From assembly GCF_004331695.1 (NCBI RefSeq), contig NZ_SJSL01000005.1:1-64000 (forward strand): a stretch of 64,000 bases of DNA, written 5' to 3'. The notes below the pieces were generated by a model, which made no database searches, was not told where the DNA came from, and worked only from the letters and a program-made list of their open reading frames with translations. A program made the position numbers and the translations under genes. Of the stretch, positions 30,004-47,946 are shown in pieces (position 1 is the first letter of the stretch; each line of letters begins with the position of its first letter). The DNA comes from Pedobacter psychroterrae. GTDB lineage: Bacteria > Bacteroidota > Bacteroidia > Sphingobacteriales > Sphingobacteriaceae.

Positions 30004-30858
30004 TTAATATTTAACTTCTGTATCCCTGGATGTGGCGTAGGCTTTGGTATAATCAAGCTTACCTACCAGTGAAGCAATGTAATCCATGCCCTGCAGGATG
30101 TGCTTCATAAAGGTTGGTTCCTGGTAATACTCCTTGTTGTGACCCAGTGTAGTGATCCATACATTGCCCCCATCAAATGTCTGGTACCATGCTGCCGGGT
30201 ACAGGTCTTTAAACGGTCCGGCTACTTTAGCTACTTTTGCCGTATCCTTTTTCAGACTGTGCAAGTCATGCGCAATGGTCACTTTAATACCCGGATACAT
30301 TTCCTTGGTAAAATAGCATTCGTCGCCCAGACTGCGTTCCCATACTTTAGGGAGGCCTTTCATGCTTGGATGAGACGGATCAATGATTTTAACGTTGAAC
30401 TTCTGGTTTGACGCATGCCATTCAAATGTTCCGCCGATCATCTGCTTGAACCAGGTCCATTTTCTTTCGGTACCCGTTACGGAATGTATGCCTACAAATC
30501 CGCCTCCGGCCTGCAGGTATCTCCTGAACTCTAAGCGCTGCTGGTCATTGTCAAACACATCATTGTTGGTACTGGTGAATACCAGCATTTTATATTTCTT
30601 TAGGTTTGCTTCTGTAAATACTGAAGGGTCATCTGAGACGTCTACGGTAAACTTATTTTCGGCACCAAGTGTCTGTATACATTTTACAGCACTGGGGATG
30701 TTGTCGTGAATAAAGCCTTTTCCATTTTTTGTATAAACCAACACCCTTGTTCCCTTTATGTTAGATTTAACCGTTGCCTGGGCCTGTTGCGCAGCAAAGC
30801 CCAGTAAAAGAAAGCTTAGCAGCAATAGTGTTTTTTGTTTGAAATTTTGGTGATTCAT
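30004..30858 (-). CDS. ThuA-domain protein, secreted
   Basis: A 284-residue protein with a signal peptide (LLLLSFLLLGFAAQQAQA). The rest is one ThuA domain, a glutamine-amidotransferase-like fold: RVLVYTKNGKGFIHDNIP, MLVFTSTNNDVFDNDQQ, YLQAGGGFVGIHSVTG and NVWITTLGHNKEYY. In Agrobacterium, ThuA acts with the oxidoreductase ThuB in trehalose use, and 3-keto-sugar chemistry has been linked to that pair. Here it lies 30 nt upstream of the Tat-exported Gfo protein and 21 nt downstream of the DUF6807 gene, so it is likely part of the same periplasmic pathway. The catalytic role of the domain is still unclear. Confidence 0.87.
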   Translation of the reverse strand: MNHQNFKQKTLLLLSFLLLGFAAQQAQATVKSNIKGTRVLVYTKNGKGFIHDNIPSAVKCIQTLGAENKFTVDVSDDPSVFTEANLKKYKMLVFTSTNNDVFDNDQQRLEFRRYLQAGGGFVGIHSVTGTERKWTWFKQMIGGTFEWHASNQKFNVKIIDPSHPSMKGLPKVWERSLGDECYFTKEMYPGIKVTIAHDLHSLKKDTAKVAKVAGPFKDLYPAAWYQTFDGGNVWITTLGHNKEYYQEPTFMKHILQGMDYIASLVGKLDYTKAYATSRDTEVKY

Positions 30859-30879: not shown

Positions 30880-32142
30880 TTATTTGTTGATTGGTTTGAC
30901 ACTCACTTGCGGCGCATTTGCAAAGCCCTTCCATGCTGCTTCGGCCTTTTCTTTATTAAACTTACCATTAAAAACCAAAAAACGATATTTAAGGATATAG
31001 TCCTGGCCTTTCAGCAGCGGCCAGTCTTTGTCTTTGGTTGGGGAGAAATTGGCATATACATCCCCTTTTCCATTTATCTTCTCCGGCCAGATCCTGAGCG
31101 GTTCGGGATAGTTGTAATTGGATGGATAAGACATCATCACAGCACCTCCGTAGTCGCTGTCCAGGCTGCCCTGCACAATCACCCAGCGGGCTTTAGTACC
31201 ATCGGCATCTTTGCGTGTCTTGCCTTCTGAAGTGAGTGTCTCACTGTTGCTGTCCTGCCATTTTTCAGTAGCCCGCCACCCCAGTCCGCCGTAGCGGTAT
31301 TCTTTTAGTGTAACGGGACTGTCGCCGGCACAGTTCATCTGGATGGTAATATCAGCAATGTAATAATCCTGATCTGCTTTTGGCTGATAAATCCTGACAG
31401 ATTGCAGCTCATTGATGGCTACCTTCTTTTCACCGTTCTTTTTAAACGCAATGTGTTCATGCAGGGTCTGGTAATCGGCGTACACCGCACCTTCGCTGAC
31501 AGATACAAAATTGGCAAACTTAACCGTTCCTTTTTTATCCTTCAGGTTCCAAAAATCTATCATCTCACCCTCAAACATAACGTGTGTCCATGGGTTCCAT
31601 AGTCCGTAATGGTGGTAATGATCGGGTGCATTGATTCGGGTGAGCGACTGTCCATGAGGTGTCCAGAGCGGATGTATAAATCCACTTCGTCTAAACGCGG
31701 TATCAACCCCTTTGGGCGGGTACATGGTTTTAAAATTGTACTGGAGCAGGTTTTTATTATTGGCAGTTATAATCAATGCTCCGTCTTTTGTAACAGTTTT
31801 GATGTGATCGGATATTTTTAGCGGAGTACCTTTTTCCAGTTCGAAAATCCGCTTTGTGGCAGCACCGTTATCCTGCTTCATCATCCAGTAAAGGGTACGC
31901 TGTCCTTTGTTTTCAATTTGATAGGCTACGGGGATCCGCTTGTTGTTTTTAACTTCAACCAAACTGATCACAGAATCGGGCAGATAGGTGATTTTATCAA
32001 GTTGAATGCTCACAGGGATGTCAAGCGATTGATTTTGCTGCTGCGGGGCAACTTCCAGCGTAGCAATTCTCTGGGCGCTTGCCATGGTTAGCATCGAAAA
32101 ACATACAGCGAAAGCCACTATGGTTTTGAGTGATGTGTTCAT
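30880..32142 (-). CDS. PmoA-type (DUF6807) secreted protein
   Basis: A 420-residue protein counted from ATG 32142, which gives a good signal peptide (MNTSLKTIVAFAVCFSMLTMASA). An in-frame start at 32301 would run back through the operator and terminator, so it is rejected. The body matches the PmoA/DUF6807 family: PLWTPHGQSLTRINAPDHYHHYGLW, EMIDFWNLKDKKGTV, and VMMSYPSNYNYPEPLRIWP. The His cluster DHYHHYG could bind metal or sugar; the fold is probably mutarotase-like. It opens the operon of ThuA and Gfo genes, and a LacI-type operator lies 36 bp upstream. Function is unknown but the context is periplasmic sugar processing. Confidence 0.8.
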   Translation of the reverse strand: MNTSLKTIVAFAVCFSMLTMASAQRIATLEVAPQQQNQSLDIPVSIQLDKITYLPDSVISLVEVKNNKRIPVAYQIENKGQRTLYWMMKQDNGAATKRIFELEKGTPLKISDHIKTVTKDGALIITANNKNLLQYNFKTMYPPKGVDTAFRRSGFIHPLWTPHGQSLTRINAPDHYHHYGLWNPWTHVMFEGEMIDFWNLKDKKGTVKFANFVSVSEGAVYADYQTLHEHIAFKKNGEKKVAINELQSVRIYQPKADQDYYIADITIQMNCAGDSPVTLKEYRYGGLGWRATEKWQDSNSETLTSEGKTRKDADGTKARWVIVQGSLDSDYGGAVMMSYPSNYNYPEPLRIWPEKINGKGDVYANFSPTKDKDWPLLKGQDYILKYRFLVFNGKFNKEKAEAAWKGFANAPQVSVKPINK

Positions 32143-32178: not shown

Positions 32179-32192
32179 TGCAATCGATTGCA
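32179..32192. promoter_or_regulatory. LacI-type operator upstream of the PmoA-ThuA-Gfo operon
   Basis: TGCAATCGATTGCA, a perfect 14-bp palindrome with a central CG, as preferred by LacI-family repressors. It is identical to the sites at 39988 and 42241. It lies 36 bp before the DUF6807 start codon and just after a terminator. The LacI-type gene at 42274-43305 is the obvious candidate binder. Confidence 0.85.
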
Positions 32193-32200
32193 CCGATAAT

Positions 32201-32233
32201 TTTAAAAAAAGCAGATCTAGATAGATCTGCTTT
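32201..32233 (-). terminator. Terminator at the end of the SusC operon
   Basis: A 12-bp near-gapless stem (AAAGCAGATCTA, 32208-32219, with TAGATCTGCTTT, 32222-32233) is followed on the minus strand by a run of seven T. It lies 43 bp beyond the stop of the last SusC-operon gene (32276) and just before the operator of the next operon, so it separates the two units. Confidence 0.85.
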
Positions 32234-32275
32234 CCATAAAACACACGCAGACAACGAAACCCAAATCCGTGTGGT

Positions 32276-33427
32276 TTATCTGATGAATACGCCTGCTTCA
32301 TGTATGTTTACATTGACAGAAGTACTTGTGTAGTCATTCTTATAGATGTGTTTGAAATACCTGAACGACCTTACCCTTGTCAGGTCTGCATATACAGGTT
32401 TGGCAGTCTGCGGACTACCAGTATTCACTGTAGGCGTATTTGCGATGACAAAATCTCCCAGTGTTTCCCAGTCTGTACCATTATTGCTGATCTGGATTTC
32501 CAAGGTTTTTAGCGGATTGGTACTCCTCTGATAGAAATAAAAGCCTTCTACATCATTAACTACCGATTTCATATCCACAATTACCCAATGCGGGTATTTG
32601 ATACTTGCTGCGATCTGGCTAACGTATAAATTGGTCAGGTTGCCGTCTATTAGGTTTACCGCCCTGCGATTGCCCGCCACATCTTCACTGGAAGCAGTAA
32701 TGGTCCAGCCTGTTTTGGCCACTTCAACGGGAGCGCCCTTTATCTTTACCGTTTTGTACCCAGTGTAAAAGCTGTCTATCGCTAATGGCGAAGGAAGATA
32801 TTTGGTACGGTAAGTAAAGCTTGTAGTAGCGTTTACATTGGTGAGTATCGTGGCTGCGATCTCAGAGGAAACATCAAGCTTATGAGCACCACCCATGAGA
32901 TCTGTGTAGCTCAGTTCAGACGATATGGCTTCTTTAAATGAAACAGCACCCCAATCTATGCGGGCACTGTCGCGCCCTATGACAGAAGCAACGTTGACTG
33001 GTCTGATTAAAATAGTTTTTTGATAATTCTCGCCATACACATTTCCCAGTATTTCAGTCTTGACTGATTTATTCCCGTCGGCATCAAAAGTAAATATTTC
33101 AAATACATAAGTACCTTCATTCATGTTACTGAGGGTCACATTGACTGTATCGATACCACCTGTCCTGGTGATGGGTACTTTGACAGAATCCTTACGGTTG
33201 TTCCAGTAGATCAATGCCCGGTTGATCTTTGGATCGGCAAATATTATCCATGATAGTTTCAACCGGTGATTTCCAGAGTGTACCTTCAGCGAGTCAGGTC
33301 TTCCGGTATATTTGATCGGTCCATCCTTGATAAACCCAGAATAGTTACTGTCCATTTTACTGCAGCTGATGATAAAACCAACCAACAGCATAAAGGAAAG
33401 GATAAGTATATTTTTATTTTGTTTCAT
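32276..33427 (-). CDS. DUF4998/discoidin-like surface lipoprotein
   Basis: A 383-residue lipoprotein from ATG 33427 (signal with lipobox Ile-Ile-Ser-Cys); the longer frame to 33475 adds only basic residues before the signal. The N-terminal half fits DUF4998 (GRPDSLKVHSGNHRLKLSWIIFADPKINRALIYWNN). The C-terminal 140 residues look like an F5/8 type C (discoidin) carbohydrate-binding domain (AVNLIDGNLTNLY, YPHWVIVDMKSV, LEIQISNNGTDWETLGDF). It is the last gene of the SusC-SusD operon and probably helps to bind glycan at the cell surface. Confidence 0.82.
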   Translation of the reverse strand: MKQNKNILILSFMLLVGFIISCSKMDSNYSGFIKDGPIKYTGRPDSLKVHSGNHRLKLSWIIFADPKINRALIYWNNRKDSVKVPITRTGGIDTVNVTLSNMNEGTYVFEIFTFDADGNKSVKTEILGNVYGENYQKTILIRPVNVASVIGRDSARIDWGAVSFKEAISSELSYTDLMGGAHKLDVSSEIAATILTNVNATTSFTYRTKYLPSPLAIDSFYTGYKTVKIKGAPVEVAKTGWTITASSEDVAGNRRAVNLIDGNLTNLYVSQIAASIKYPHWVIVDMKSVVNDVEGFYFYQRSTNPLKTLEIQISNNGTDWETLGDFVIANTPTVNTGSPQTAKPVYADLTRVRSFRYFKHIYKNDYTSTSVNVNIHEAGVFIR

Positions 33428-33475
33428 AACATCACGTTTAAAATCCTTGTTTTTGTATTTATATACCCTATGCAA

Positions 33476-34666
33476 TTATTCCCTTTTCCCCCAGAAGGTG
33501 AGTTCAGAGAGATAGATATAGTCAAGGAGGTCCCAGGTTTCCAAAACTTTAACCCTAAGGTACCTCACTGCAGGTGCATCATCAGGGAAGGTAAAGTCTT
33601 CACCATTGGTACTGGCATACAGATTATCCTCGTCGGTATTGATTCCTACGGGACTTCCGGACGGTTTGTAAGATTCACAATCCATCAGCTTCACCCACCC
33701 TGTCCAGCTACCCTGGGGATCAGGATTATTGCTCCCCCATATTTCCCATTTTCTTGGAGCACCTAGCCTGTAGGCATAAAGTTTTGGAGAACCCCTGTGG
33801 AACAGTTTGTAACGGCTAAGTTTTGCTTTTACCTTTAAGTCAAATGAAAAGTGCTGTGGCATGCCAGCTCCCGGCTTGGTATGCAGGCCTACTTCACTTA
33901 CAGGCCCGGTAATGTTGTCCCAAAGTTTATCTACAGTATGGCCACTTAAATGTGCTTCATAAGTATCGGTAGGTAAGTTGTAAGTCTGAAAGGGCTTAGG
34001 TATCAATTCTTCAAAAACCGGTGTCAGCTCCACAAATGCAGTATCTGACAGATTGCCCCAGCGGTCTCTTACCACCGCTCCGAATTTCCGTTTCACGTTT
34101 TCAAAACCACGGGAGTAAAACTTAGGGTTTTTCGACTTGCTGTAATACGTATCTACTTCCGTCATTTGTCCGGAAGCATTTGGCGTGAACAGCGTAACCG
34201 CTACACTGGCTTCTCCTTGGTTTTGGAAAGTCACCACTACACCACCAAATGTTTCCTTAAACTCGAGGGTACTGTATACTTCCTGTAAGGGAGGAGTCAA
34301 AGGCGTGACCTTCACAGTCACGGGTGCGGAAGACTTTTCGCCATTGCTGACTGCGTAAAGTTTTACCTCGTGCTCTTCGGTATTAGGGAAGCCGTCTACC
34401 AGGATGTAATTGGTATAGTTGGAAGATTTGGCTTCTTTTAGCTCTCCTGGTCTGATCTCATATTCTGCCCTTACGTAACGCAAGCTCGCATCTGACGGTA
34501 ATGTATAAAAGATCTTGGCAGAACCCGGCAGGCGCTCTACCCTGATATTGGAAACCTGTCCCGGTGCCACGTCTTCGATCAGGCTAACATATTCTTTTTC
34601 TTGCTTACATCCTGATAAGGCAAACAACAGTATCAGAACAGTGTTTAATATTTTACGCATATTCAT
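33476..34666 (-). CDS. DUF4959/DUF5000-type surface lipoprotein
   Basis: A 396-residue lipoprotein (lipobox Ala-Leu-Ser-Gly-Cys, Cys20). The N-terminal region resembles DUF4959, an Ig-like domain (VAPGQVSNIRVERLPGSAKIFYTLP); the middle resembles DUF5126 (SGQMTEVDTYYSKSKNPKFYSRGFENVKRKFGAVV is typical in style); the C-terminus resembles DUF5000, a discoidin-type binding domain (LWDNITGPVSEVGLHTK, AYRLGAPRKWEIWGSNNPD). This trio commonly follows SusC/SusD genes in Bacteroidota. It lies 25 nt after the SusD gene. Expected role: surface glycan-binding protein. Confidence 0.83.
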   Translation of the reverse strand: MNMRKILNTVLILLFALSGCKQEKEYVSLIEDVAPGQVSNIRVERLPGSAKIFYTLPSDASLRYVRAEYEIRPGELKEAKSSNYTNYILVDGFPNTEEHEVKLYAVSNGEKSSAPVTVKVTPLTPPLQEVYSTLEFKETFGGVVVTFQNQGEASVAVTLFTPNASGQMTEVDTYYSKSKNPKFYSRGFENVKRKFGAVVRDRWGNLSDTAFVELTPVFEELIPKPFQTYNLPTDTYEAHLSGHTVDKLWDNITGPVSEVGLHTKPGAGMPQHFSFDLKVKAKLSRYKLFHRGSPKLYAYRLGAPRKWEIWGSNNPDPQGSWTGWVKLMDCESYKPSGSPVGINTDEDNLYASTNGEDFTFPDDAPAVRYLRVKVLETWDLLDYIYLSELTFWGKRE

Positions 34667-34691
34667 CTTATTTCATTTTTAATATCCATAA

Positions 34692-36593
34692 CTACCAGCC
34701 AGGATTTTGAACAGTATTTTTATTTGCAAGCATTTCAGTTTCCCGTATAGGCCATAGATAATCTCTGGTGGTAAACACCTGTTTAAATATTTGTTTTTCC
34801 CTGTAATAACCAGCACTGGTTACCTGCGCTAAATCCCATCCGGTAATTGGTTTATTGAGTTCCGATATGGCTGTTTTCCAGCGACGAAGATCCCAGAAAC
34901 GCTGCCCTTCAAAAGCTAGCTCTATCAAACGCTCTTGCCTGATAATGTCTCTCATACCATCTTTTACACCAGGTTTTCCGGGGTTTACAGAAGCTGTTTG
35001 CCATGAAGTAACCACTCCTTGAAGTCCAGCTCTTTCCCTTACCCTGTCAATCCATTTATACACTTCTGCTCCGGGGCCTGTGGTTTCATTCAGCGCCTCT
35101 GCATACAGTAGGTAAAGATCCGCAAGGCGGATAACAGGCCAAGGGTAGTCGATTTTGGTATACGTATTCCCATCGCCTATGACATTGGTATAGTAAACCA
35201 GCTTCTTAGGCCAGAATCCTGTAGCATTGTGCGAATGATTGGCGATGGTAGATGCCGACTGGCCCTTTTTTGCCATAAGATACCAGGGATCATTGTCATT
35301 AAACCTGCCCTGTCCGTACCAGATGCCTCCATCAAATCCAAGACTTGCATAATACCTGGGCTCACGGTTGAAGTTGATGGATGCCGTTGTATACCCGTAT
35401 TTCAAATTATAACGTTCTTCTTGTCCTGCAGTTTTGAGTTCATATCGTCCGGCATAATCCCATTCTGAATCTTCTGTAATAGGCACGCCCCGGTCTGAGT
35501 AGAACACTTCCGTCACCTTAATAGGCACCCCAAGGTTTCCTGCTACACCTCCATTGGTTCGCTTGGCGGGATCTAGCCCCCTTGTAGTGGCCTGTACCTG
35601 TAGGGTGCTGGCTGTACTGTTTGGATTTCCCCAAATAATTTCTGCGTTCCATTTTTCTGTAAGGCTGTTGCGGATGTTAAGCTGGATCCTGGTAGTGTCT
35701 GACACATTGTACTGCTGTCCGCTTTGACTGTAATAATACAATTTGCTGCCATTCATTTCGCAGAGCTCTATGGCTTCCTTACAAGCTGCCGCGGCTTTTT
35801 CCCATTTGCCCTGATCGATGGTGGTATTGAATAACGCAGTACCCTGATTGTCAGTAAACCCTATATAATCCGAGTTCCCGTTAAATAAGGGGCTGGCCGC
35901 TGTAACCAGCACATAAGCCTTCAAGGCCAAAACAATCGGCCTGGTGATCCGCCCTAATTCTGCCGCTTCATTGTCTATCCTGTTTGGCAGCATTTCAGGT
36001 GCTGCTGCTTCATCCAAAAGCTGCACGACATAGTTAAAGCAATCATCTACTTTATCCCTTCTTACTTTAACTTCTTCTATTCCTGCAGATACCGGCAAAT
36101 TCTCTTTCTTCAGCGGAATAGGCCCGTACATCCGGATCAGCCAAAAGTGGTAATAGGCTTTTAAAAACTTTGCTTCGGCTATCCAGCGGTCGCGCTCATA
36201 CTCATCCAGATCGGGAACAGTACCAACATTCTCTAAAAAGATATTACAATCCCTGATGCCCTGGTATAAATCTTTGCCTCCCTGGCTACCCTGCCAATAA
36301 TTCAGGTAGGGATCCAGTACGTTTTGAAAACCTCTGGCTATACTATAGCCAGTAGTGGAATAATCGTTGTGCAGCCAAAACTCATCTCCGGCTGTAAAAG
36401 CCGGATTGGCCGTAAGGCTACTTTGCAGTGGCATGTACGCATAGCAAGTAAATAAAAACCGCTCCGCGCTGATGCGCATCGTAAATGCATTTTCTATGGT
36501 TGGTATATTATCGGGAACGATATCCAGGTATTTTTTGCACGAGCTGCACACAGTAAGCAACACTATATAAAGTCCAATTTTTATATTTCTCAT
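34692..36593 (-). CDS. SusD/RagB-family glycan-binding lipoprotein
   Basis: A 633-residue outer-membrane lipoprotein (lipobox Ser-Ser-Cys at residues 17-19). SusD features are the early helical TPR region (FLFTCYAYMPLQ, IRDCNIFLENVGTVPDLDEYERDRWIAEAKFLKAYYHFWLI) and the late RagB motif (WPVIRLADLYLLYAEALNE, IDRVRERAGL, IRQERLIELAFEGQRFWDLRRWK). It forms the lid of the SusC transporter and captures oligosaccharides. It starts 11 nt after the SusC stop. Confidence 0.95.
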   Translation of the reverse strand: MRNIKIGLYIVLLTVCSSCKKYLDIVPDNIPTIENAFTMRISAERFLFTCYAYMPLQSSLTANPAFTAGDEFWLHNDYSTTGYSIARGFQNVLDPYLNYWQGSQGGKDLYQGIRDCNIFLENVGTVPDLDEYERDRWIAEAKFLKAYYHFWLIRMYGPIPLKKENLPVSAGIEEVKVRRDKVDDCFNYVVQLLDEAAAPEMLPNRIDNEAAELGRITRPIVLALKAYVLVTAASPLFNGNSDYIGFTDNQGTALFNTTIDQGKWEKAAAACKEAIELCEMNGSKLYYYSQSGQQYNVSDTTRIQLNIRNSLTEKWNAEIIWGNPNSTASTLQVQATTRGLDPAKRTNGGVAGNLGVPIKVTEVFYSDRGVPITEDSEWDYAGRYELKTAGQEERYNLKYGYTTASINFNREPRYYASLGFDGGIWYGQGRFNDNDPWYLMAKKGQSASTIANHSHNATGFWPKKLVYYTNVIGDGNTYTKIDYPWPVIRLADLYLLYAEALNETTGPGAEVYKWIDRVRERAGLQGVVTSWQTASVNPGKPGVKDGMRDIIRQERLIELAFEGQRFWDLRRWKTAISELNKPITGWDLAQVTSAGYYREKQIFKQVFTTRDYLWPIRETEMLANKNTVQNPGW

Positions 36594-36604
36594 CTTCGTT
36601 CTGT

Positions 36605-39600
36605 TTAAAATGCTACGTTAAGACCTAAATTAAATACTTTTTGAACCGGGTATCCAAGTCCGTTTCCGGCCATCTCTACGTCCCATAATCCGAATTTACT
36701 AAATGTGAGCAGGTTAGTGCCGTTCACATAAATCCTCGGTGCAGACATGCGAAGGCGGTCGGCGATTCTTTTAGGAAGTGTATAACCAAACTCCACCTGT
36801 TTCAACCTAAGAAAAGCCCCGTTTCGCATAAACCAGGTACTGGTCTGAGAATTGTTCTGGCTCACTCCAGGCGCACTAAGACGAGGCCACAAAGCATATA
36901 CATTGCGGTTTTCTTCCGACCAGTGATCATCGGCATAAGCTTTCAGCAGCTGGTTTTGGGTAATGCCGCTAATCACTTCATTCTGATAGGTGTAGGAAAC
37001 GAAAGGCGCGGTAGCCTGCGGATCTATCCAGAATGATTCGCGGGTAAGGCCCTGAAAGAATGCCGACATATCAAATCCTTTAAATCCAGCAGAAAGTCCG
37101 AATCCGTAAACAATTTCCGGTTCGGTTGGAAAGCCTATCGGAACCTGATCAAGCACAGTTATCTTGCCATCACCGTTTACATCTCTGTATTTAATATCAC
37201 CACCCCTTACTTCTCCACCGAAACTTTGCAGCGGCGAATTAGCTACCTCTGCATCATCCACAAATAAGCTTTCTCCTATATAACCAAAAACCTGGCTGAT
37301 CGGAAGACCGATGCGGGATTTCCAGGGCTCATTCATGTAGTCATACTCTTCAAACACGGTATACTTACTGGTGGCATAGGTGAAGTTTGCACGCCCTTGC
37401 ATCCAGAAGGCATTGTTGAACGAATGGTTGTAGGACATCTGAACGTCTACTCCTTTACCCTGTGCCTTACCTATATTGGCGTATGGCTGCACCCATAGCC
37501 CCATCGAAGCGGGAGTGGAAACGCGCTGTTGTAAAATATTTTCTCTCCTTTCCGTATAATACTCTGCTATAACTTCGAGTTTATTGAACAGACCCATTTC
37601 GAGTGCAACATTCATTTTCTTGGCAGTTTCCCAGGTGATGTTTTGATCCGAATACCGGCTTACGGTAATACCGTTCCTGGAATATCCTGCATCGCGACCG
37701 AAAACAGAACGGTAATCCACATTGTTCATATTTACCTCCGACAGGTATAAGAAACGTCCGCTCCCAATATTGTCATTTCCTACCAATCCGTAGGTACCCC
37801 TTAACCTTAGATTGTTGATGGTATTTTTTAACGGTTTCCAGAAGGCTTCATTAGATACGCTCCAGGCCAGTCCAGCGGCAGGGAAGAACCCAAACCGGTG
37901 GTCTTCATAAAAACGCTCAGTACCGTTATAGCCAAAGTTGAATTCAGCAAAGTACCTGGAGTCGTATGAATAAGTAGCCCGACCAGATAAACCCACGTTT
38001 CTGAAAGGCAGGGACTGCTGCAATGTTGGGGCATTGGCTGTGAGGCTCTGCCGCATGATGGAAACTAGTAAGCCACTTAAAGTATGCTTGTTGAAATCAC
38101 GGGTATAGTTGACCGCCGATTCAATGTAGAATGTAGAATTGATGGTTTTTTCACCAGGAGAATAGGTTAAGAAATCTGTTCCGGAGTCGGGGTTGACAAC
38201 ATTCACCCGATAAGTGTTTTCACGTCTGTTGTATTGCCCTAACTGGTAAAAGAACGGAGAATAAGCCCTGGTAACATCAAAGAATGCACCTCTGGTAGTA
38301 TTCAGCATGGTCCTGAAGGAAAGTCCTTGTGTAAGCATCGATAAGTCCTGCTTCAACTCAAACTGGGCAACCATACTTGACCTGGAATAGTCTTTATATC
38401 CGCTTACCATATCCGCATAGGGATTCAGGTAATTACCGTCAACTGAATTACCGAACATGATGTGTTTGACAAATTGATGGTCATCATCTACAGGATAGGT
38501 AGCAGGAAACAACACCGGATTGGTACGCATTACCCTTCTGTACATGGCAGTACCGCCATCGACCGGACCCGTATAGTCATCAAAATTACCACTTAGCCTG
38601 ATGATCATTTCTGTTGATTTGGTCAGGTTGACATTTACATTGGACCTTAACGAATAATTTTTTAGCTTGATATTGCTGTTAAAGTTGCTCCGTTCGTCCA
38701 CTTTTAAGACCCCATTATCCTGATTGAAGGCTCCGGCCACATAATACTTAGCGACAGATCCACCACCGCTTACACTCAAATTGGCACGCTGGTTCATGGT
38801 GTAATCTTTAAAAAGCTCTTTGCGCCAGTCTGTAGAGGGATAGATATAGGAACCCGAACCCAATACCGTATTGTCAATCTTATCATCACTGTAAGGAAGT
38901 TCGCGCAATGGATCGCGTGTAAGTATAGCCTCGTTGTGCAAGCGCATGTAAGTAACCGGATCTGCGAGTTCTACATTTTTTGTAGCTGTGGACATGGAAT
39001 TTTCCAGCCGCAGAGAGATCTTGGCCTTACCCTCTTTACCCTCCTTTGTGGTTACCAGCACGACCCCATTGGCACCCCTTGCACCATACAAGGCGGTCGC
39101 CGTAGCATCTTTCATAATAGAAAAGCTATTGATATCATCCGGATTAAGGCGGGCAAGATCTGTACTGGACAGCTCTACCCCATCGATCAGGATCAGCGGA
39201 TTTCTATTGGTACCGAAGGTAGTGATCCCCCGTATGAAGAAATTGGCATTGTCTTCACCCGGTTCACCACTCCGCTGATAGGCAATCATACCTGCTATTC
39301 TTCCTGCAAGGGCGGTTGTAAGGTTACTGGAAGGCACTTTCAGCTCCTTTGGATTGATTGTAGTGATGGAACCAATAACCGATTCCTTTTTTTGCTTTCC
39401 AAAAGCCACAACCACGGCTTCGTCAAGCATATTATCTGCAGATTTAATGACTACGTTGATTACTGCCCTGCCTTTCACGGCGATTTCTTGGGTTTCAAAT
39501 CCGACCATTTTAAAGACCAGGATTGAATTGTCATCAGGCACTTCAAGAAAATACCTTCCGTTTACATCGGTGGTAGTCCCAATGTTTGGCTTGTCTTTAA

Positions 39601-39802
39601 CAAGCACTGTCACGCCAGGCAAGGCACCCGTGGTATCAGAAACCAAACCCCTTACTTCTTTGTTTTGAAAGTTACTTTCAAATCTGATACTTATGGTTCT
39701 AGGGGGTGATTTTTTTGCATAAACACCCAATCCGGTTATGCAAATGCAACATGTTAGCAGAAGTTGTCGAAAACTTCCATTGGTTCGTAATTTTTTAAGC
39801 AT
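36605..39802 (-). CDS. SusC/RagA-family TonB-dependent outer-membrane transporter
   Basis: A 1065-residue outer-membrane importer of oligosaccharides. Order of parts: signal region to about residue 30, a carboxypeptidase-regulatory-like domain (EVRGLVSDTTGALPGVTVLVKDKPNIGTTTDVNGRY, about 47-120), the TonB plug (VTTINPKELKVPSSNLTTALAGRIAGMIAYQRSGEPG, NPLILIDGVELSSTDLARLNPDDI, ATALYGARGANGVVLVTTKEGKEG), then the barrel ending in Phe. No extra N-terminal signalling domain is seen, so it is not a sigma/anti-sigma type. It heads the SusC-SusD-lipoprotein operon; a promoter and LacI operator lie about 200 bp upstream, giving a long leader. Confidence 0.95.
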   Translation of the reverse strand: MLKKLRTNGSFRQLLLTCCICITGLGVYAKKSPPRTISIRFESNFQNKEVRGLVSDTTGALPGVTVLVKDKPNIGTTTDVNGRYFLEVPDDNSILVFKMVGFETQEIAVKGRAVINVVIKSADNMLDEAVVVAFGKQKKESVIGSITTINPKELKVPSSNLTTALAGRIAGMIAYQRSGEPGEDNANFFIRGITTFGTNRNPLILIDGVELSSTDLARLNPDDINSFSIMKDATATALYGARGANGVVLVTTKEGKEGKAKISLRLENSMSTATKNVELADPVTYMRLHNEAILTRDPLRELPYSDDKIDNTVLGSGSYIYPSTDWRKELFKDYTMNQRANLSVSGGGSVAKYYVAGAFNQDNGVLKVDERSNFNSNIKLKNYSLRSNVNVNLTKSTEMIIRLSGNFDDYTGPVDGGTAMYRRVMRTNPVLFPATYPVDDDHQFVKHIMFGNSVDGNYLNPYADMVSGYKDYSRSSMVAQFELKQDLSMLTQGLSFRTMLNTTRGAFFDVTRAYSPFFYQLGQYNRRENTYRVNVVNPDSGTDFLTYSPGEKTINSTFYIESAVNYTRDFNKHTLSGLLVSIMRQSLTANAPTLQQSLPFRNVGLSGRATYSYDSRYFAEFNFGYNGTERFYEDHRFGFFPAAGLAWSVSNEAFWKPLKNTINNLRLRGTYGLVGNDNIGSGRFLYLSEVNMNNVDYRSVFGRDAGYSRNGITVSRYSDQNITWETAKKMNVALEMGLFNKLEVIAEYYTERRENILQQRVSTPASMGLWVQPYANIGKAQGKGVDVQMSYNHSFNNAFWMQGRANFTYATSKYTVFEEYDYMNEPWKSRIGLPISQVFGYIGESLFVDDAEVANSPLQSFGGEVRGGDIKYRDVNGDGKITVLDQVPIGFPTEPEIVYGFGLSAGFKGFDMSAFFQGLTRESFWIDPQATAPFVSYTYQNEVISGITQNQLLKAYADDHWSEENRNVYALWPRLSAPGVSQNNSQTSTWFMRNGAFLRLKQVEFGYTLPKRIADRLRMSAPRIYVNGTNLLTFSKFGLWDVEMAGNGLGYPVQKVFNLGLNVAF

Positions 39803-39987
39803 AGTTTTACTATTTGGTTAGGTTTTTCATCAAATCTTATCTCATCCCTTAGATACGATCGAATCGGATTTTGTTTTACGATTTTGAGGCCTTAAATGGT
39901 CAACCAGAACTTAATTTAGAAATGCTGTCTGCTGTGTAGAGTTGCTGCATAGTTTATTCATTTAGTTTATTATTTGGTTTTGTTATA

Positions 39988-40001
39988 TGCAATCGATTGC
40001 A
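39988..40001. promoter_or_regulatory. LacI-type operator at the SusC promoter
   Basis: TGCAATCGATTGCA, identical to the sites at 32179 and 42241. It lies 10 bp downstream of the predicted -7 box (40011-40018), so a bound repressor would cover the transcription start, a classic repression geometry. Confidence 0.88.
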
Positions 40002-40010
40002 CACATAATG

Positions 40011-40042
40011 TAAATATAATTTAAAAAAGCATAAGTATCAAA
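40011..40042 (-). promoter_or_regulatory. Bacteroidota promoter of the SusC operon
   Basis: On the minus strand TTTG (40039-40042) is followed by 20 nt and TATATTTA (40011-40018), one base from the TAnnTTTG consensus. Transcription would begin near 40004, at the edge of the LacI-type operator. The spacing and box sequences fit the primary sigma factor of Bacteroidota. Confidence 0.7.
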
Positions 40043-40130
40043 ATAAAATATAAAAAAATATCACGTAATTAACTCTCAATCAGGCATCGACAAGCCATTT
40101 ATGCGTACCAGAACCTCAGAACAGACAATC

Positions 40131-40144
40131 TGCAATCGAACGCA
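40131..40144. promoter_or_regulatory. Possible auxiliary LacI operator
   Basis: TGCAATCGAACGCA matches the 14-bp operator at 12 positions. It lies 143 bp (centre to centre) upstream of the main SusC operator, overlapping the region just downstream of uxuA. It might allow DNA looping, but a chance match is possible. Confidence 0.4.
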
Positions 40145-40148
40145 TAAA

Positions 40149-41312
40149 TTATGCACTACTTTCAAGGCCATATTCCAATCCCCGTAACTCTGCCAGCCCC
40201 TTCAACCTTCCTATTGCTGAATAACCCGGATTGGTTATTTTATGCAGATCGTCCAACATCTGGAGGCCGTGATCTGGACGATAAGGAATAGGATCTGTTC
40301 TTTGCTGATTGATGGCAACCAGTTCTTTCATCACCGCATACATGTCCACATCGCCCTTAAGATGACCTGATTCATAAAAATTATTGTTTTCCACCCTGGT
40401 TACATTCCGCAAATGCGCAAAGTAAACCCGGTGCCCCACTGCCTTAAGTATAGCTGCTATATCTTCGTTATGCACCCCGGCTCCTAATGATCCTGTACAA
40501 AAACAAATTCCATTATGTACACTCCTGTTGTTTTCAATGATATACAGCAAATCTTCCTTACTGGTTGCGATCCTTGGCAATCCTAAAATTGAATAAGGCG
40601 GATCATCCGGATGCAGGGTCATCTTGATACCTGACTCATTGCAGGTTTCTTCTATTGCGTCTAAAAAACGAAGCAGGTTTTTGCGCAACCCCTCAGGTCC
40701 CAATTCATTATATATCGCAAGGCTCTGATGTAATTGCGCGATGGTGGTGCTTCCTTCTGTAGGAACTCCCATCAAAATATTGTCTTTAAGCAGCTGCAAG
40801 CCTTCTGGTGTCGATCCTTTAAACCGCAGTTCGGCCTGCTCTGCAATATTTGCCGCATAATCCCTGTCCGCACCTTCCCTTTTTAACAAATAAATATCAA
40901 ATACAGCAAGATCAACCCAGTCCATCAACAGAGATCTGGACCCGTCTGTCAATTCATAATCCAATGTGGTACGGGTCCAGTCCAGCACCGGCATAAAATT
41001 GTAACAAACAATTTTAAGTCCGGATGAAGCAAGGTTGCGCAAGGTCTGATTGTAATTATCGAGATACTTTTGGCAGTCTGCTGCTCCCGTTTTAATAGAT
41101 TCATGTACCGGAACACTTTCTACAACCGTCCATTTTAATCCTGCCGCCTCTATAATATGTTTACGCTGTTCAATCTCCTCAACAGTCCATACCTCACCAT
41201 GCGGAACCTGATGGAGCGCACTTACAATATCTGTAGCGCCTGCCTGTTTAATATCTATAAGTGTTACCGGATCATTTGGCCCATACCATCTCCAGGATTG
41301 AAGTAGCGACAT
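40149..41312 (-). CDS. uxuA: Mannonate dehydratase
   Basis: UxuA dehydrates D-mannonate to 2-keto-3-deoxygluconate, the third step of glucuronate breakdown, in the cytoplasm. The 387-residue length is typical. Family landmarks include the start SWRWYGPNDPVTLIDIKQAGATDIVSALH, IVCYNFMPVLDWTRT, MTLHPDDPPYSILGLPRIATS, and ICFCTGSLGAGVHNED with HLRNVTR, supplying the metal-binding His and Cys residues. It lies 46 nt after an SDR gene that likely makes mannonate from fructuronate; the pair is preceded by a promoter containing a LacI operator. KDG kinase and aldolase are not obvious in this window. Confidence 0.93.
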   Translation of the reverse strand: MSLLQSWRWYGPNDPVTLIDIKQAGATDIVSALHQVPHGEVWTVEEIEQRKHIIEAAGLKWTVVESVPVHESIKTGAADCQKYLDNYNQTLRNLASSGLKIVCYNFMPVLDWTRTTLDYELTDGSRSLLMDWVDLAVFDIYLLKREGADRDYAANIAEQAELRFKGSTPEGLQLLKDNILMGVPTEGSTTIAQLHQSLAIYNELGPEGLRKNLLRFLDAIEETCNESGIKMTLHPDDPPYSILGLPRIATSKEDLLYIIENNRSVHNGICFCTGSLGAGVHNEDIAAILKAVGHRVYFAHLRNVTRVENNNFYESGHLKGDVDMYAVMKELVAINQQRTDPIPYRPDHGLQMLDDLHKITNPGYSAIGRLKGLAELRGLEYGLESSA

Positions 41313-41358
41313 ACTCTATTATTTATTGGTTTATATATTTGGTTTTAAAAAAAGGAGT

Positions 41359-42180
41359 TTATACTCCGCAATAGGCATTGAATCCACCGTCTACCAATAC
41401 CGTTTCCCCGCTTACAAAAGAAGAGGCCTCGCTCAGCAGATAAATTAAAGTTCCGGTTAATTCCTTTGGATCACCAAACCTGCCAAAAGGGGTATTGTTA
41501 ATGAATTTCTGCGCTCTATCAGTATACGACCCGTCGGCATTGGTCAACAAATCCCTGTTCTGTTCAGTTAAAAATACTCCTGGCGCAATTGCGTTAACAC
41601 GCAGACCTCCCCCATAACGTAATCCTAGCTCTACAGCCATCCATTGCGTATAAGCTTCAATGCCTGATTTGGCAAGTGTATAACCAAGTACCCGCGTGAT
41701 AGGGCGCTGAGCTGCCAATGAAGAAATATTGACAATGGAACCTTTCCCTTTTTCTGCCATTACCCGTCCGAAAATATGGGTTGGGATCACCGTACCAAAT
41801 AGATTCAGGTCTACCGCTTTCTTTATATCGGAGACAGTTGCATCAAAAAGATTATCGTCCGGACCGATTACGGATCCGGCGATGTTACCACCTGCGGCAT
41901 TTACCAGGCCGTCAATTGTTCCCCAAACTTCCAGTACTTTTTCTTTTGCTTTAGTAACCTGTTCTTCGTCCAGAACATCTGCAAGTACCGCTATTGCTTC
42001 TCCTCCTGCTTCCTTAATAGACGCTACACAACTGTCGGCCCTTTCCTTATTCCTTCCCAGAACCACTACTTTGGCACCAGCCTTGGCCACATCAAGCGAA
42101 AATGCAGTTCCTAGTACACCAGTTGCACCAGTAATAATAATTACTTTGTTCTTTAATGAGAATTGATTGTTTTCTTCCAT
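41359..42180 (-). CDS. SDR oxidoreductase, probable D-mannonate oxidoreductase (fructuronate reductase)
   Basis: A 273-residue short-chain dehydrogenase. The cofactor motif is TGATGVLGTAF, the second motif NAAGGNIAG, and the catalytic set is Ser in IVNISSLAA with Tyr-x3-Lys in LGYTLAKSG. The C-terminus VSGETVLVDGGFNAYCGV is standard for the family. Pairing with uxuA suggests reduction of fructuronate to mannonate, a reaction done by SDR enzymes instead of UxuB in several Bacteroidota; this is inferred from context. It is the first gene after a promoter with an embedded LacI operator. Confidence 0.85.
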   Translation of the reverse strand: MEENNQFSLKNKVIIITGATGVLGTAFSLDVAKAGAKVVVLGRNKERADSCVASIKEAGGEAIAVLADVLDEEQVTKAKEKVLEVWGTIDGLVNAAGGNIAGSVIGPDDNLFDATVSDIKKAVDLNLFGTVIPTHIFGRVMAEKGKGSIVNISSLAAQRPITRVLGYTLAKSGIEAYTQWMAVELGLRYGGGLRVNAIAPGVFLTEQNRDLLTNADGSYTDRAQKFINNTPFGRFGDPKELTGTLIYLLSEASSFVSGETVLVDGGFNAYCGV

Positions 42181-42232
42181 TTAATATATCTACTTAAAAC
42201 AGGCTTAATTTCTATTTGCTTTGGTTTAAAAG

Positions 42233-42263
42233 TAAATATATGCAATCGATTGCATATTGCAAA
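42233..42263 (-). promoter_or_regulatory. Promoter of the SDR-uxuA operon with LacI operator in the spacer
   Basis: On the minus strand TTTG (42260-42263), 19 nt, then TATATTTA (42233-42240). The operator TGCAATCGATTGCA fills 42241-42254 of the spacer, directly touching the -7 box. A bound repressor would exclude RNA polymerase. The SDR start codon is at 42180, leaving a short leader. Confidence 0.8.
42241..42254. promoter_or_regulatory. LacI-type operator of the SDR-uxuA operon
   Basis: TGCAATCGATTGCA, third identical copy in the window, positioned between the -33 and -7 boxes. Confidence 0.88.
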
Positions 42264-42273
42264 AAAAATAAAT

Positions 42274-43305
42274 TTATTTATCTGTGGAATCTCTTTTTAC
42301 CAGATCAACCGCTATAGTGACTGATATATAGTTCTTGCCGGGCTTTAACTTCTGCTGAATCAGGTTCATAATCATTCCTGCTGCCTGGGTGCCGACTTCA
42401 GATGGATACTGCTCAACCGATGTGATGGTAGGTTTTATTATTTCTGTGAGCGGGTCATTTGAATAACCGGTAATCTTAAGTTGCGCAGGTATCTCCACAC
42501 CGCGGTTTTTAGCATAGGTGGTAACCGCCAAAGCTACGGTATCATTGCAGCAGAAAACAGCATCAGGCCAGGTATCCCGCTTGCCTGAAAACAAGGCTTC
42601 ACAGCTTTGCAATGCGCTTTCCTTCGTTAGGTCATGAAAAAATGTCCTGTTAGGACCCGGAGAAAGCTCATAACCTTTTAATGCATCAGCATACCCCTCA
42701 TACCTTTCCCTGTACAGGTTACAAAACAAGGGGCCTCCTATAAATGCAACATTCCTGCAGCCCTGTGTCAGCAAATGATTGGTAGCCATATTTGCTCCAT
42801 GGTAGTCATCACCCTGTATTTTATGCGCAGGATAATTTTTAGGGACCCTGTCAAAGAACACCAGGGGCCTGTTGCTTCTGGAGAAAACATCAAAATGAGC
42901 AAAATCAGTTGTATTTAAAGTAGAGGATACGATCAGACCCTCTACCCTGGAGGCATACAAGGCATTGACCAGCTCCTTTTCCAGTTCATGCGACTCGTTC
43001 GACTGACAGATCATCAGATTATACTTATGCTCATGCAGTTTATTTTGTATTGCTGTGATTACGGTAGACTGATAATATCTTGAGATCCGGGGAATGATCA
43101 GGCCAATCGTATTGGATTTACTGTTCCTTAAGCTGGCCGCAACCGCATTATAACTATAACCAAGTCTGTTTGCTGCTTCGTTAACCTTTATTTTGGTCTC
43201 CTGACTAATATGCGGGTGGTCCTGTAGTGCCCTTGATACGGTTGAAGAAGATAAACCTAATTCAAGGGCTATATCTTTCATCGTATTGTCTGATCCTTTT
43301 TTCAT
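42274..43305 (-). CDS. LacI-family transcriptional regulator
   Basis: A 343-residue repressor counted from ATG 43305 (MKKGSDNTMKDIALEL). The upstream frame to 43341 would run into the operator-like site and is disfavoured. The N-terminal HTH is clear (TMKDIALELGLSSSTVSRALQDHPHIS, with hinge NAVAASLRN), followed by a periplasmic-binding-protein-like sensor (TIGLIIPRISRYYQ, VEGLIVSSTL, FIGGPLFCNLYRERYEGY). It sits just upstream of the SDR-uxuA operon. A degenerate operator lies 32 bp before its start, pointing to autoregulation. The ligand is probably a uronate catabolite or the imported glycan, not determined. Confidence 0.9.
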   Translation of the reverse strand: MKKGSDNTMKDIALELGLSSSTVSRALQDHPHISQETKIKVNEAANRLGYSYNAVAASLRNSKSNTIGLIIPRISRYYQSTVITAIQNKLHEHKYNLMICQSNESHELEKELVNALYASRVEGLIVSSTLNTTDFAHFDVFSRSNRPLVFFDRVPKNYPAHKIQGDDYHGANMATNHLLTQGCRNVAFIGGPLFCNLYRERYEGYADALKGYELSPGPNRTFFHDLTKESALQSCEALFSGKRDTWPDAVFCCNDTVALAVTTYAKNRGVEIPAQLKITGYSNDPLTEIIKPTITSVEQYPSEVGTQAAGMIMNLIQQKLKPGKNYISVTIAVDLVKRDSTDK

Positions 43306-43336
43306 TAAGCTAATGGGAATTTCATTTATGCAAATA

Positions 43337-43350
43337 TGCAATCGATTTCT
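43337..43350. promoter_or_regulatory. Degenerate LacI-type operator upstream of the regulator gene
   Basis: TGCAATCGATTTCT matches 12 of 14 positions of the operator, with the left half intact. It lies 32 bp before the start codon of the LacI gene, suggesting weaker autoregulation. Confidence 0.6.
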
Positions 43351-44379: not shown

Positions 44380-45390
44380 TTAGTTCCTGAAGCCGTATGA
44401 TTTTGACAGCGCAAGGCATTCTTCTGCCGGAACTATCCCATCAGATGATGTGGCAGCAAATAAGCTTGAGGCAGCTGCACAGACTCCCAGTTTGAGGCAA
44501 GTTTGCATCTCCTGATCGTCATGAACCCCTATCAAAACGCCTGCGGCAAAAGCATCTCCTGCCCCAACAGCTCCCTGTATCTTATCTGCCGGTAAATTTA
44601 TACTCGGTTGAAATAATTGCTGATCCTGTTTGTTTACCGCAATCACACCCATAGGGAAATGAAGGATCACCCAGCTTCTTACACCCATTTCAATAATTGT
44701 GGAGGCAGCTTCGTAGCATTTGTCCAGCATTGGCTGCCCCTGATCAGAAACGGTTTGGATCCCGGTGATCATTCCCGCCTCAAATTCGTTTAAGAACAGG
44801 TAGTCTATATAAGGAAGCGCGGGAGTTACAACCTCTTTAAACCTGTCTGACTTCTCACTTACAATATCGGCCGAGGTGATAAAACCATGTTCACTTGCTT
44901 TTTTTAAAACACTCATGGCCCTTGTTGTCCCATCTTCCTGTTTAGCATCCAAAGTATCCAGCAGCAACAGGTAACCCAGGTGAAAGATCTTCGCACCGGA
45001 ACCGGAGAAATCAAAATGAGGAATATCCAGTAGTGCATTTGCCCCTCTTTGATGAAAAAAGGTTCTTTTACCGGTTGATTTTACCGTCATCACATCTGTA
45101 TAAGAAGTATAAGCTCCGGGCATTTTTTGAATCTGCGCAGTGCCTATACCCAAATTCTGACAGTCCTGGATGATCTGCGTGCCGCGGTCATCATCTCCTA
45201 CCAGGCCAACGCCATTTAGCGGAAAACCAGCATTTAACTTAACCAGTCCCTTTAAAATATTGTATGCAGAGCCGCCATTGCTACTGTATTCGCTAAGAAT
45301 ATTAACCAGTTTTTCTTCTTCCGGGAAAGCATCAACTACTTTGACCTGGTCTATTATCCAATTGCCGCCAACCAATATTCCATTTCTCAT
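44380..45390 (-). CDS. PfkB-family carbohydrate kinase
   Basis: A 336-residue ribokinase-like kinase. Substrate-site motif near the start: SSNGGSAYNILKGLVKL; the ATP/anion-hole motif is GAVGAGDAFAAGV with the catalytic Asp. PfkB kinases phosphorylate sugars such as fructose, tagatose, ribose or KDG; specificity cannot be read here. It is the last gene of a four-gene operon (aldolase, Gfo oxidoreductase, lyxose-isomerase-like cupin, kinase), 2 nt after the cupin gene. The logical job is to phosphorylate the ketose made by the isomerase so that the aldolase can split it. Confidence 0.88.
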   Translation of the reverse strand: MRNGILVGGNWIIDQVKVVDAFPEEEKLVNILSEYSSNGGSAYNILKGLVKLNAGFPLNGVGLVGDDDRGTQIIQDCQNLGIGTAQIQKMPGAYTSYTDVMTVKSTGKRTFFHQRGANALLDIPHFDFSGSGAKIFHLGYLLLLDTLDAKQEDGTTRAMSVLKKASEHGFITSADIVSEKSDRFKEVVTPALPYIDYLFLNEFEAGMITGIQTVSDQGQPMLDKCYEAASTIIEMGVRSWVILHFPMGVIAVNKQDQQLFQPSINLPADKIQGAVGAGDAFAAGVLIGVHDDQEMQTCLKLGVCAAASSLFAATSSDGIVPAEECLALSKSYGFRN

Positions 45391-45392
45391 AG

Positions 45393-45965
45393 CTATCTTT
45401 CGCTTACCAATTTTATGATCAGGGCTTCGTCCTCTTCTATCTCTGAGAAGCGTCCAATAGCTTCATTAGAAAAGAAATTGTCATTGAGGTCGTCATTTGC
45501 AGTAGATACTTCACCAATGACACATTCATCGGAACCTGGATAGAACTCATGCCAGACACCCGGCTCGATGGTTACCCGTTCTCCTGGTTTTAAGCTAATT
45601 TTTTCTCCGGACTTTATCAATCTTGCTTCACCATTTACTTTTATAGTCAGGCTGTTTGAAGTTTGTGCTTTTGCAGGATCACCTGTCCAAAACTGCACGA
45701 TAAGATTTCCGGCCCTGGAAATGATGTCTTCCTTCTTCTTTTTATGCATATGTGCGGGTGTGACCTGATTTTTCACCGCGTACATTAATTTCTCACAATA
45801 TTCAGCTTCTTCTGCCAGATTTACCAACACAAGACCAGTAGTTAAAAATGATCCTAAGCCAAAATCAGTGATGTCCCATTTCGGGTTTGGTGGCAAAAAC
45901 CAGCCATTTTGTCTAAAAAAATTGGCGGCGGTTATGATTGCCTGATTTATTTCTGATCTTTTCAT
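45393..45965 (-). CDS. D-lyxose ketol-isomerase-like cupin
   Basis: A 190-residue single-domain cupin. Motifs match the D-lyxose isomerase family: metal ligands in VTPAHMHKKKKEDIISRAG (two His, Glu), the second set in LKPGERVTIEPGVWHEFY (Glu, His) and the family segment VIGEVSTANDDLNDNFF. Such enzymes interconvert an aldose and its ketose with Mn. It overlaps the Gfo oxidoreductase gene by 4 nt and precedes the kinase gene by 2 nt, so it is part of a dedicated catabolic route. The true sugar may differ from lyxose or mannose. Confidence 0.85.
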   Translation of the reverse strand: MKRSEINQAIITAANFFRQNGWFLPPNPKWDITDFGLGSFLTTGLVLVNLAEEAEYCEKLMYAVKNQVTPAHMHKKKKEDIISRAGNLIVQFWTGDPAKAQTSNSLTIKVNGEARLIKSGEKISLKPGERVTIEPGVWHEFYPGSDECVIGEVSTANDDLNDNFFSNEAIGRFSEIEEDEALIIKLVSER

Positions 45966-47104: not shown

Positions 47105-47115
47105 AAGTTCTGATT

Positions 47116-47946
47116 CTATTTTATTAAATCCAAAACGTCTGAAGGACGTGCCCCTTCATGCACAATCGCCATTAAAGCTTTTGTCATCCCTGCAGGATCT
47201 GCATGCTGTATTACATTTCTGCCGTACACGATCCCCTTAGCCCCTTGCTGCATTAATCCGTAAGTTCTTTCCAGGATTTCTGCATCACTTGCTTTTCCTC
47301 CCCCTCTGACAAGCACCGGGATGTTTCCCGCAATTTCGATTATTTTGTGGTAGTCATTAACATCATCTGTAGGATCAGCCTTGATTATATCAGCTCCCAG
47401 TTCTACCCCCTGCCTTACCAGTGAAACAATCTTTTGTGAATCACCGTCTACCATATAGCCCCCCACTTCCTTATTGGGCCTGAATACCAATGGCTCTACC
47501 ATTAACGGCATGGAATACTGATCGCACAGAGGTTTGATTTTTAAAATATTCTGAATACACTGATCTGTCACTTCAGGTTCATCAGGGATACTAAACAAGT
47601 TGACCACTACACAGACTGCATCTAATCTTATCGCTTGTTCTACCGGATTTTCTATCATGCGGCTAAAAAGCCTTCGGGGCAATTCCTTTCCGTAAACATT
47701 GGCAACGTCTGTTCTAAGTACCAGTGCAGGTTTGTATTTGCCTGGTATAGCCTGAAGATATTGAGCTTGCCCCACCGTCAACTGAATGGCATCAGGACCG
47801 GCCGCCACCAGGACGTCTACTGCCGACTTAATGTTTTCTATTCCATTCAGGAAAGACACCTCATTAAAAAAGCCATGGTCAATGGCTACATCAAAGCAAT
47901 TTCCGGATTTACCGTTAAACAATCTATTAAGCTTATATGATTTCAT
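47116..47946 (-). CDS. DeoC/LacD-family class I aldolase (FbaB/LsrF-like)
   Basis: A 276-residue TIM-barrel aldolase. Features: CFDVAIDHGFFNEVSFLNGIENI at the start, MPLMVEPLVFRP in the middle, GADIIKADPTDDVNDY with the Schiff-base Lys expected in IIKAD, and VLVRGGGKASDAEILERTYGLMQQGAKGIVYGRNVIQH with the phosphate-binding GGG and GR. Members include FbaB, LsrF, YihT and LacD, all acting on phosphorylated ketoses. It is the first gene of the operon, reading from a promoter that overlaps a GntR-type operator. The substrate is unknown. Confidence 0.87.
   Translation of the reverse strand: MKSYKLNRLFNGKSGNCFDVAIDHGFFNEVSFLNGIENIKSAVDVLVAAGPDAIQLTVGQAQYLQAIPGKYKPALVLRTDVANVYGKELPRRLFSRMIENPVEQAIRLDAVCVVVNLFSIPDEPEVTDQCIQNILKIKPLCDQYSMPLMVEPLVFRPNKEVGGYMVDGDSQKIVSLVRQGVELGADIIKADPTDDVNDYHKIIEIAGNIPVLVRGGGKASDAEILERTYGLMQQGAKGIVYGRNVIQHADPAGMTKALMAIVHEGARPSDVLDLIK

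Follow-up and report, generated by a model that had tools for sequence, protein, structure and literature searches.

The closest described counterpart of the locus studied here is the uxuRBA cluster of Bacteroides, whose LacI-family regulator UxuR is predicted to control glucuronate use (PMC3878776). A UxaR/UxuR/KdgR branch of the LacI family has been described, and the norm for operators of the family is an even palindrome with CG at its centre (PMC4052901). The Bacteroides ManR and AraR regulons offer a second likeness, in that a single regulator spans a SusC/SusD operon and the catabolism of a monosaccharide in the cytoplasm; they differ from the present case in that ManR is a GntR-family regulator of mannose use and AraR an NrtR-family regulator of arabinose use (PMC3878776). 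In this study, we have analysed the first 64,000 nucleotides of contig NZ_SJSL01000005.1 of the soil bacterium Pedobacter psychroterrae (the window), in which a lacI gene, the uronate genes uxuB and uxuA, a SusCD importer operon and an operon headed by a DUF6807 gene share one 14-bp palindrome, TGCAATCGATTGCA. We consider it very likely that the LacI protein is a UxuR-like, autoregulated local repressor of a glucuronide-utilisation polysaccharide utilisation locus (PUL), with the 14-mer as its operator. As with Bacteroides UxuR (BT1434), a LacI-family regulator stands by uxuB and uxuA, which serve uronate catabolism, the palindrome is short and CG-centred (PMC3878776), and lacI-uxuB-uxuA is the order of uxuRBA; the two are likened by arrangement and not by orthology to BT1434. 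Unlike uxuRBA, the Pedobacter regulon also extends to an importer operon (SusCD) and to a cassette of periplasmic oxidoreductases.

The palindrome is confined to this locus. Three exact copies occur in the whole 5,112,203-bp genome, all inside the window (32179, 39988 and 42241), where a first-order Markov model gives an expectation of 0.042 (P of at least three, ~1e-5), and each precedes a transcription unit (the DUF6807 operon, susCD and uxuB-uxuA, respectively). It is also the sole repeated perfect 14-bp palindrome of the window. The first-pass annotation had listed these three copies and two 12/14 matches (40131 and 43337), and all five coordinates were confirmed; its proviso that many copies unrelated to sugar genes would speak against a regulon was answered by the genome-wide scan. 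Its placement of the sites stood for the three exact copies, each in front of an operon, but the 40131 site heads no operon of its own and lies just past the uxuA stop codon. Counting words with up to three mismatches was uninformative (5 observed against 4.0 expected, not above chance), and exact matches and conservation were used instead. The central CG is found in 33/33 collected operator sites, although the search pattern itself contains CG. Two one-mismatch sites, C8:963881 within an open reading frame (ORF) and C15:54011 within a coding region, are likely chance matches. Exact copies inside a gene of genome G039 and ahead of a beta-glucosidase-like gene in genome G005, where there is no close LacI orthologue, are unrelated or unexplained. 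The features of the locus, whose genes all lie on the minus strand, are as follows, in gene order.

43337 to 43350, no strand: putative lacI (auto)operator, AGAAATCGATTGCA in gene direction, 31 bp before the ATG, 12/14 match.
42274 to 43305, minus strand: lacI, UxuR-like LacI-family repressor of 343 aa, the proposed regulator (PF00356 helix-turn-helix and PF13377 effector domain above cut-offs, hence of the LacI/GalR family).
42241 to 42254, no strand: putative uxuB operator, exact 14-mer, 60 bp before the ATG, occupying the whole spacer from TTTG to TATATTTA; P. ginsengisoli shares this geometry, its upstream element being CTTG.
42228 to 42263, minus strand: predicted uxuB promoter of the Bacteroidota type, TTTG-N19-TATATTTA, by consensus match.
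41359 to 42180, minus strand: uxuB, short-chain dehydrogenase/reductase (SDR) family D-mannonate oxidoreductase (fructuronate reductase; NCBIfam NF006132, 342 bits against a cut-off of 281).
40149 to 41312, minus strand: uxuA, D-mannonate dehydratase (TIGR00695, 461 bits against a cut-off of 200; PF03786).
40131 to 40144, no strand: putative auxiliary operator (12/14), 4 bp past the uxuA stop and 143 bp upstream of the susC operator.
40011 to 40042, minus strand: predicted susC promoter, TTTG-N20-TATATTTA, by consensus.
39988 to 40001, no strand: putative susC operator, exact match to the 14-mer, 185 bp before the ATG, 9 bp after the -7 box and around the likely start site.
36605 to 39802, minus strand: susC, TonB-dependent importer (TIGR04056, 969 bits).
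34692 to 36593, minus strand: susD, surface lipoprotein (PF07980).
33476 to 34666, minus strand: DUF4959-DUF5126-DUF5000 surface or periplasmic protein of the susCD operon (domain search).
32276 to 33475, minus strand: protein with DUF4998 and an F5/8-type C domain (domain search).
32195 to 32245, minus strand: hairpin and T-run, likely terminator of the susCD operon (-19.8 kcal/mol, z -6.75), missing in P. ginsengisoli.
32179 to 32192, no strand: putative DUF6807-operon operator, exact 14-mer, 36 bp before the ATG.
30880 to 32142, minus strand: DUF6807 exported protein (PF14100; beta-sandwich model, predicted local distance difference test score, pLDDT, 90; fold matches at Z ~20).
30004 to 30858, minus strand: ThuA-domain protein, signal peptide judged by eye (PF06283).
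28534 to 29973, minus strand: Gfo/Idh/MocA oxidoreductase with a twin-arginine-type leader (PF01408/PF19051).
27162 to 28532, minus strand: Gfo/Idh/MocA-like lipoprotein with a PF16490 C-terminus (solved relative 4oo3, 578 bits).
26024 to 27124, minus strand: lipoprotein with a GH2-type TIM barrel, the last gene of the operon (PF02836, 34.5 bits; no PDB relative found by sequence).

The lacI start is most likely the ATG at 43305 and not the TTG within the operator, and the 43337 site thus lies outside the gene; DUF6807 most likely starts at the ATG at 32142. The operator of susC falls outside the commonest distance range of LacI sites from the start codon (30-140 bp), while those of lacI, uxuB and DUF6807 fall within it. 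In the orthologous locus of P. ginsengisoli (LacI 90%, SusC 88% identical), AGAAATCGATTGCA is found unchanged before lacI, exact 14-mers precede uxuB and susC, and upstream of the susC site, at 134 bp, comes TGCTTTCGATTGCA, the counterpart of the 40131 site, for which the distance in the window is 143 bp. Because that locus lacks uxuA, the auxiliary site is conserved relative to susC and not to the gene upstream. There are 26 words within two mismatches of the 14-mer genome-wide; the two 12/14 sites are credible only because P. ginsengisoli keeps both at equal positions.

The promoters bear on how the regulator might act. By the Bacteroidota consensus (TTTG / TAnnTTTG), the uxuB operator occupies exactly the 19-bp spacer of its promoter and the susC operator starts 9 bp beyond its own; both promoters have one consensus mismatch, and each has a chance of ~3-4% of arising in shuffled sequence. 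The geometry recurs in P. ginsengisoli: the uxuB operator is followed at once by TATATTTA, and 9 bp separate TTTG-N19-TACATTTA from the susC operator downstream. The earlier claim that two sites lie in or right beside a good promoter of this type therefore holds for uxuB and susC; the lacI promoter is weaker by consensus. Since the operators lie in the spacer of the uxuB promoter and just past the -7 box of susC, they are suited to repressor action. An activating or mixed role of the same LacI over the same regulon would agree with an auxiliary site well upstream of the susC promoter, and some members of the family, such as CcpA and Cra, are generally known to activate, but we regard it as improbable given that the main operators lie between the -33 and -7 elements of uxuB and beyond the -7 box of susC, typical positions for repression, and that a further LacI site lies at the regulator's own promoter.

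Which protein reads the palindrome can be approached by comparing genomes. When seven Pedobacter genomes having a LacI orthologue were scanned with TGCAAWCGWTTGCA, 15 of the 16 sites adjoined the lacI orthologue, and a reversed control pattern gave 0; the W positions were derived from sites at these loci, which makes the scan mildly circular and leaves the exact 14-mer unaffected. The sixteenth site precedes a GH43-like gene and xylulokinase/xylose isomerase genes, near another LacI. LacI orthologues of 55-64% identity occur in Parapedobacter, Pontibacter, Rufibacter and a metagenome-assembled genome (MAG) of the Chitinophagaceae, and the operator is also found beside those of Parapedobacter, the MAG and Pontibacter; a class-wide search for LacI orthologues yielded only distant additions. 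Across the tree, TGCAA accompanies a recognition-helix pair whose last residue is Ser, and TGAAA one whose last residue is Ala. The latter group includes a paralogous LacI of the same genome (C13:146491, 43%), which adjoins kduI and a KduD-like SDR and has TGAAAACGTTTTCA as its operator; the two Rufibacter orthologues and the lacI promoter of the MAG are exceptions, with no clear site just upstream. Because of the covariation, the local LacI is identified as the predicted reader of the 14-mer, about as well as sequence allows. The central proposal of the first-pass annotation, one local LacI regulon over three units, is thus supported by the genome-wide scan, the footprints in P. ginsengisoli, the association of operator and lacI in other families, and the helix/operator covariation.

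A different reader has nevertheless to be weighed. AGCAATCGATTGCG lies at C1:1606377-1606390 between a xylulokinase gene and a LacI gene and is 12/14 identical to the 14-mer, differing at both ends; such sites probably mark a second, xylose-type LacI regulon alongside this one, with an operator that is distinct only at its ends. A second copy of AGCAATCGATTGCG was noticed at C11:64970-64983, 1 kb past the window, before another susC-like gene. It is very unlikely that the 14-mers are read mainly by this or another LacI paralogue, the local lacI having a different site: the likeness of the xylulokinase-linked operator would favour it, as would an exact TGCAATCGATTGCA in genome G067 that precedes xylose genes close to a LacI, but the window genome has no exact 14-mer outside this locus, seven genomes carry such sites next to the orthologous lacI, and the xylose-type site is different at both ends. 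A repeat or restriction-type motif of no regulatory role, as a perfect palindrome with a central ClaI-like core might suggest, is scarcely credible as an explanation with just three copies, all intergenic near start codons, at conserved positions and with a reversed control of 0.

Several observations weigh against a regulon of local LacI repression as we propose it. The promoter of the DUF6807 operon is weak by consensus, and in P. ginsengisoli the DUF6807 gene lies ~50 bp after the DUF4998 gene without an operator of its own. Whereas the window separates the DUF6807 operon from the susCD operon by a strong terminator (32195-32245) and the third exact operator, P. ginsengisoli has one continuous operon; either a single operon was split into two or two were fused in P. 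ginsengisoli, and co-regulation would be retained both ways. Two Rufibacter orthologues have no clear TGCAA-type site, those of Pontibacter precede kduI, so the effector may vary by species, and cross-talk is possible with the near-identical LacI operators (AGCAATCGATTGCG) that the genome has at other places.

Site positions, genome-wide exclusivity, conservation, promoter geometry and covariation were read off the DNA; binding, repression, effector, substrate and the role of the cassette we infer. In our model of LacI repression, a LacI dimer would, when inducer is absent, occupy the spacer of the uxuB-uxuA promoter, the start region of susCD, the front of the DUF6807 operon and its own promoter, and so block transcription; the auxiliary site 143 bp upstream would aid repression of susCD, possibly by looping. 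On arrival of a glucuronide, LacI would be released by a product of its breakdown, for which glucuronate, fructuronate and mannonate are possible candidates, and SusCD import, periplasmic processing by the DUF6807-ThuA-Gfo-Gfo cassette and cytoplasmic catabolism would be induced in a coordinated manner. In the last of these, UxuB and UxuA would convert fructuronate through mannonate to 2-keto-3-deoxygluconate in the cytoplasm, with glucuronate isomerase provided from another part of the genome, where two uxaC genes lie outside this locus.

The company kept by orthologous genes points to the substrate. With uxuA and uxuB beside lacI, both above their model cut-offs (TIGR00695, NF006132), the locus has the adjacency of the Bacteroides UxuR regulon, and neighbouring susC and susD (TIGR04056, PF07980) mark it as a PUL. 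In genome G062 the neighbour of the orthologous lacI is a complete uronate operon, with uxuB, uxuA, uxaC, a PfkB-family kinase, 2-keto-3-deoxy-6-phosphogluconate aldolase and a major facilitator superfamily (MFS) transporter. Beyond P. ginsengisoli, the nearest orthologous susCD operons share 65-70% identity; three are headed by a GH67 alpha-glucuronidase, GH67 being found with the importer in Parapedobacter as well as in two other genomes of this family, and GH43 and GH115 are also present in examined orthologous susCD loci. The GH67 operon of Parapedobacter composti (L019/L102) is a close counterpart, with an orthologous LacI (64%), SusC (70%), SusD (65%), orthologues of the DUF5000 and DUF4998 proteins and operators of the same type; it carries GH67, GH43, a sulfatase and GH115 where the window has uxuBA and the oxidoreductase cassette, and a hybrid two-component system (HTCS) gene adjoins it. 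A perfect palindrome, TGGAATCGATTCCA, was also seen within its GH67 coding region (L019:11400), ~300 bp downstream of the main operator, as a possible auxiliary operator. In genome G565 the orthologous importer lies with uxuB and LacI, and no GH67 occurs in the stretch read. GH67 and GH115 were absent from the window genome and that of P. ginsengisoli, both of which were searched. Since the orthologous importers travel with GH67, GH115 and GH43, a glucuronide is the likeliest substrate, possibly derived from glucuronoxylan; the suggestion that all three units serve one glycan is borne out in part, in that this company points to glucuronides of the glucuronoxylan type.

The third unit had been described as a periplasmic redox operon, which is right as to its two Gfo/Idh/MocA proteins with export signals and incomplete in that it also encodes DUF6807, ThuA and GH2-like barrel proteins. 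The DUF6807-ThuA-Gfo/Idh/MocA-Gfo/Idh/MocA cassette is conserved in the family. In G565 it lies ~840 kb from the lacI-uxuB-susCD locus, yet TGCAACCGATTGCA is found 58 bp upstream. Only three words of that genome come as near as one mismatch to the 14-mer, this one and two at the lacI-susCD-uxuA locus. Genome G648 has a one-mismatch site, TGCAATCGATTGCG, just before DUF6807, among eight such words, and in genome G539 an MFS transporter precedes the cassette. By profile, the closest solved relatives of the exported Gfo protein are the Alistipes glucoside-3-dehydrogenase structures 8tdf/8tdh; by fold, DgpA and AL3 score high, but the whole Gfo superfamily exceeds Z 25 and the model has a pLDDT of 71. 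The model for BT_2158 glycoside 3-dehydrogenase (NF058561) gave 117.5 bits, far below its cut-off of 750. The likeness to the 3-oxidation enzymes of Alistipes and other Bacteroidota (AL3, 8tdf/8tdh; BT_2158; PF06439) is that of an exported Gfo/Idh/MocA dehydrogenase in a sugar-uptake operon; the operon here has DUF6807 and ThuA instead, and among its scanned proteins none matched PF06439 (3-keto-disaccharide hydrolase) or AP_endonuc_2. We do not count the operon as a member of the 3-keto-glycoside pathway; by analogy, it may work in a similar way. The DUF6807 model consists of an Ig-like domain and a large beta-sandwich resembling a PL26 lyase, an alpha-mannosidase domain and mutarotases; we rejected these matches as proof of lyase activity, as they share a common sugar-binding beta-sandwich.

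We tentatively suggest, as a possibility that is rather doubtful, that the cassette removes glucuronic acid from imported glucuronides by periplasmic oxidoreduction (3-oxidation, then elimination or hydrolysis), taking the place of GH67/GH115 alpha-glucuronidases while LacI control and importer stay the same. Such an oxidative replacement of alpha-glucuronidase would fit the facts, and we infer each of its steps. Literature searches found no paper on DUF6807, ThuA and DUF1080 together and none on a glucuronide 3-dehydrogenase with beta-elimination. As a separate observation, orthologous LacI regulators at three related loci (L061, L065 and L025) again couple uronate control with oxidative glycoside enzymes, their loci including a 3-keto-disaccharide hydrolase (PF06439), AP_endonuc_2 or DUF7133-cytochrome c proteins.

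Most studied PUL regulators of Bacteroidota are HTCS, SusR-like or extracytoplasmic function (ECF) sigma systems; here a regulon could be defined from sequence alone, which gives a PUL a specific operator and regulator. Its kind is already known, a local autoregulated UxuR-type LacI that also covers SusCD, and the cassette under uronate control is the most interesting part. A conserved, uncharacterised secreted cassette tied to glucuronate metabolism has a directly testable function, and nature provides a comparison in which the same regulator and an orthologous importer go with GH67 in one species and with the cassette in another that has neither GH67 nor GH115.

Elsewhere in the window, a separate operon on the minus strand (44380-47946) encodes a PfkB kinase, a D-lyxose isomerase-like protein, a Gfo/Idh/MocA oxidoreductase and a DeoC/LacD aldolase, beside a divergent GntR-regulator-like gene (48110-48823, plus strand). 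A protein with DUF7133, HEAT and cytochrome c domains (57725-59962, minus strand) adjoins GH92 and GH95 genes. Finally, an RHS-repeat protein that ends in a Colicin D (tRNase) domain (14855-18202, minus strand) and a small ORF that may encode an immunity protein (14541-14861, minus strand) likely form a polymorphic toxin pair.

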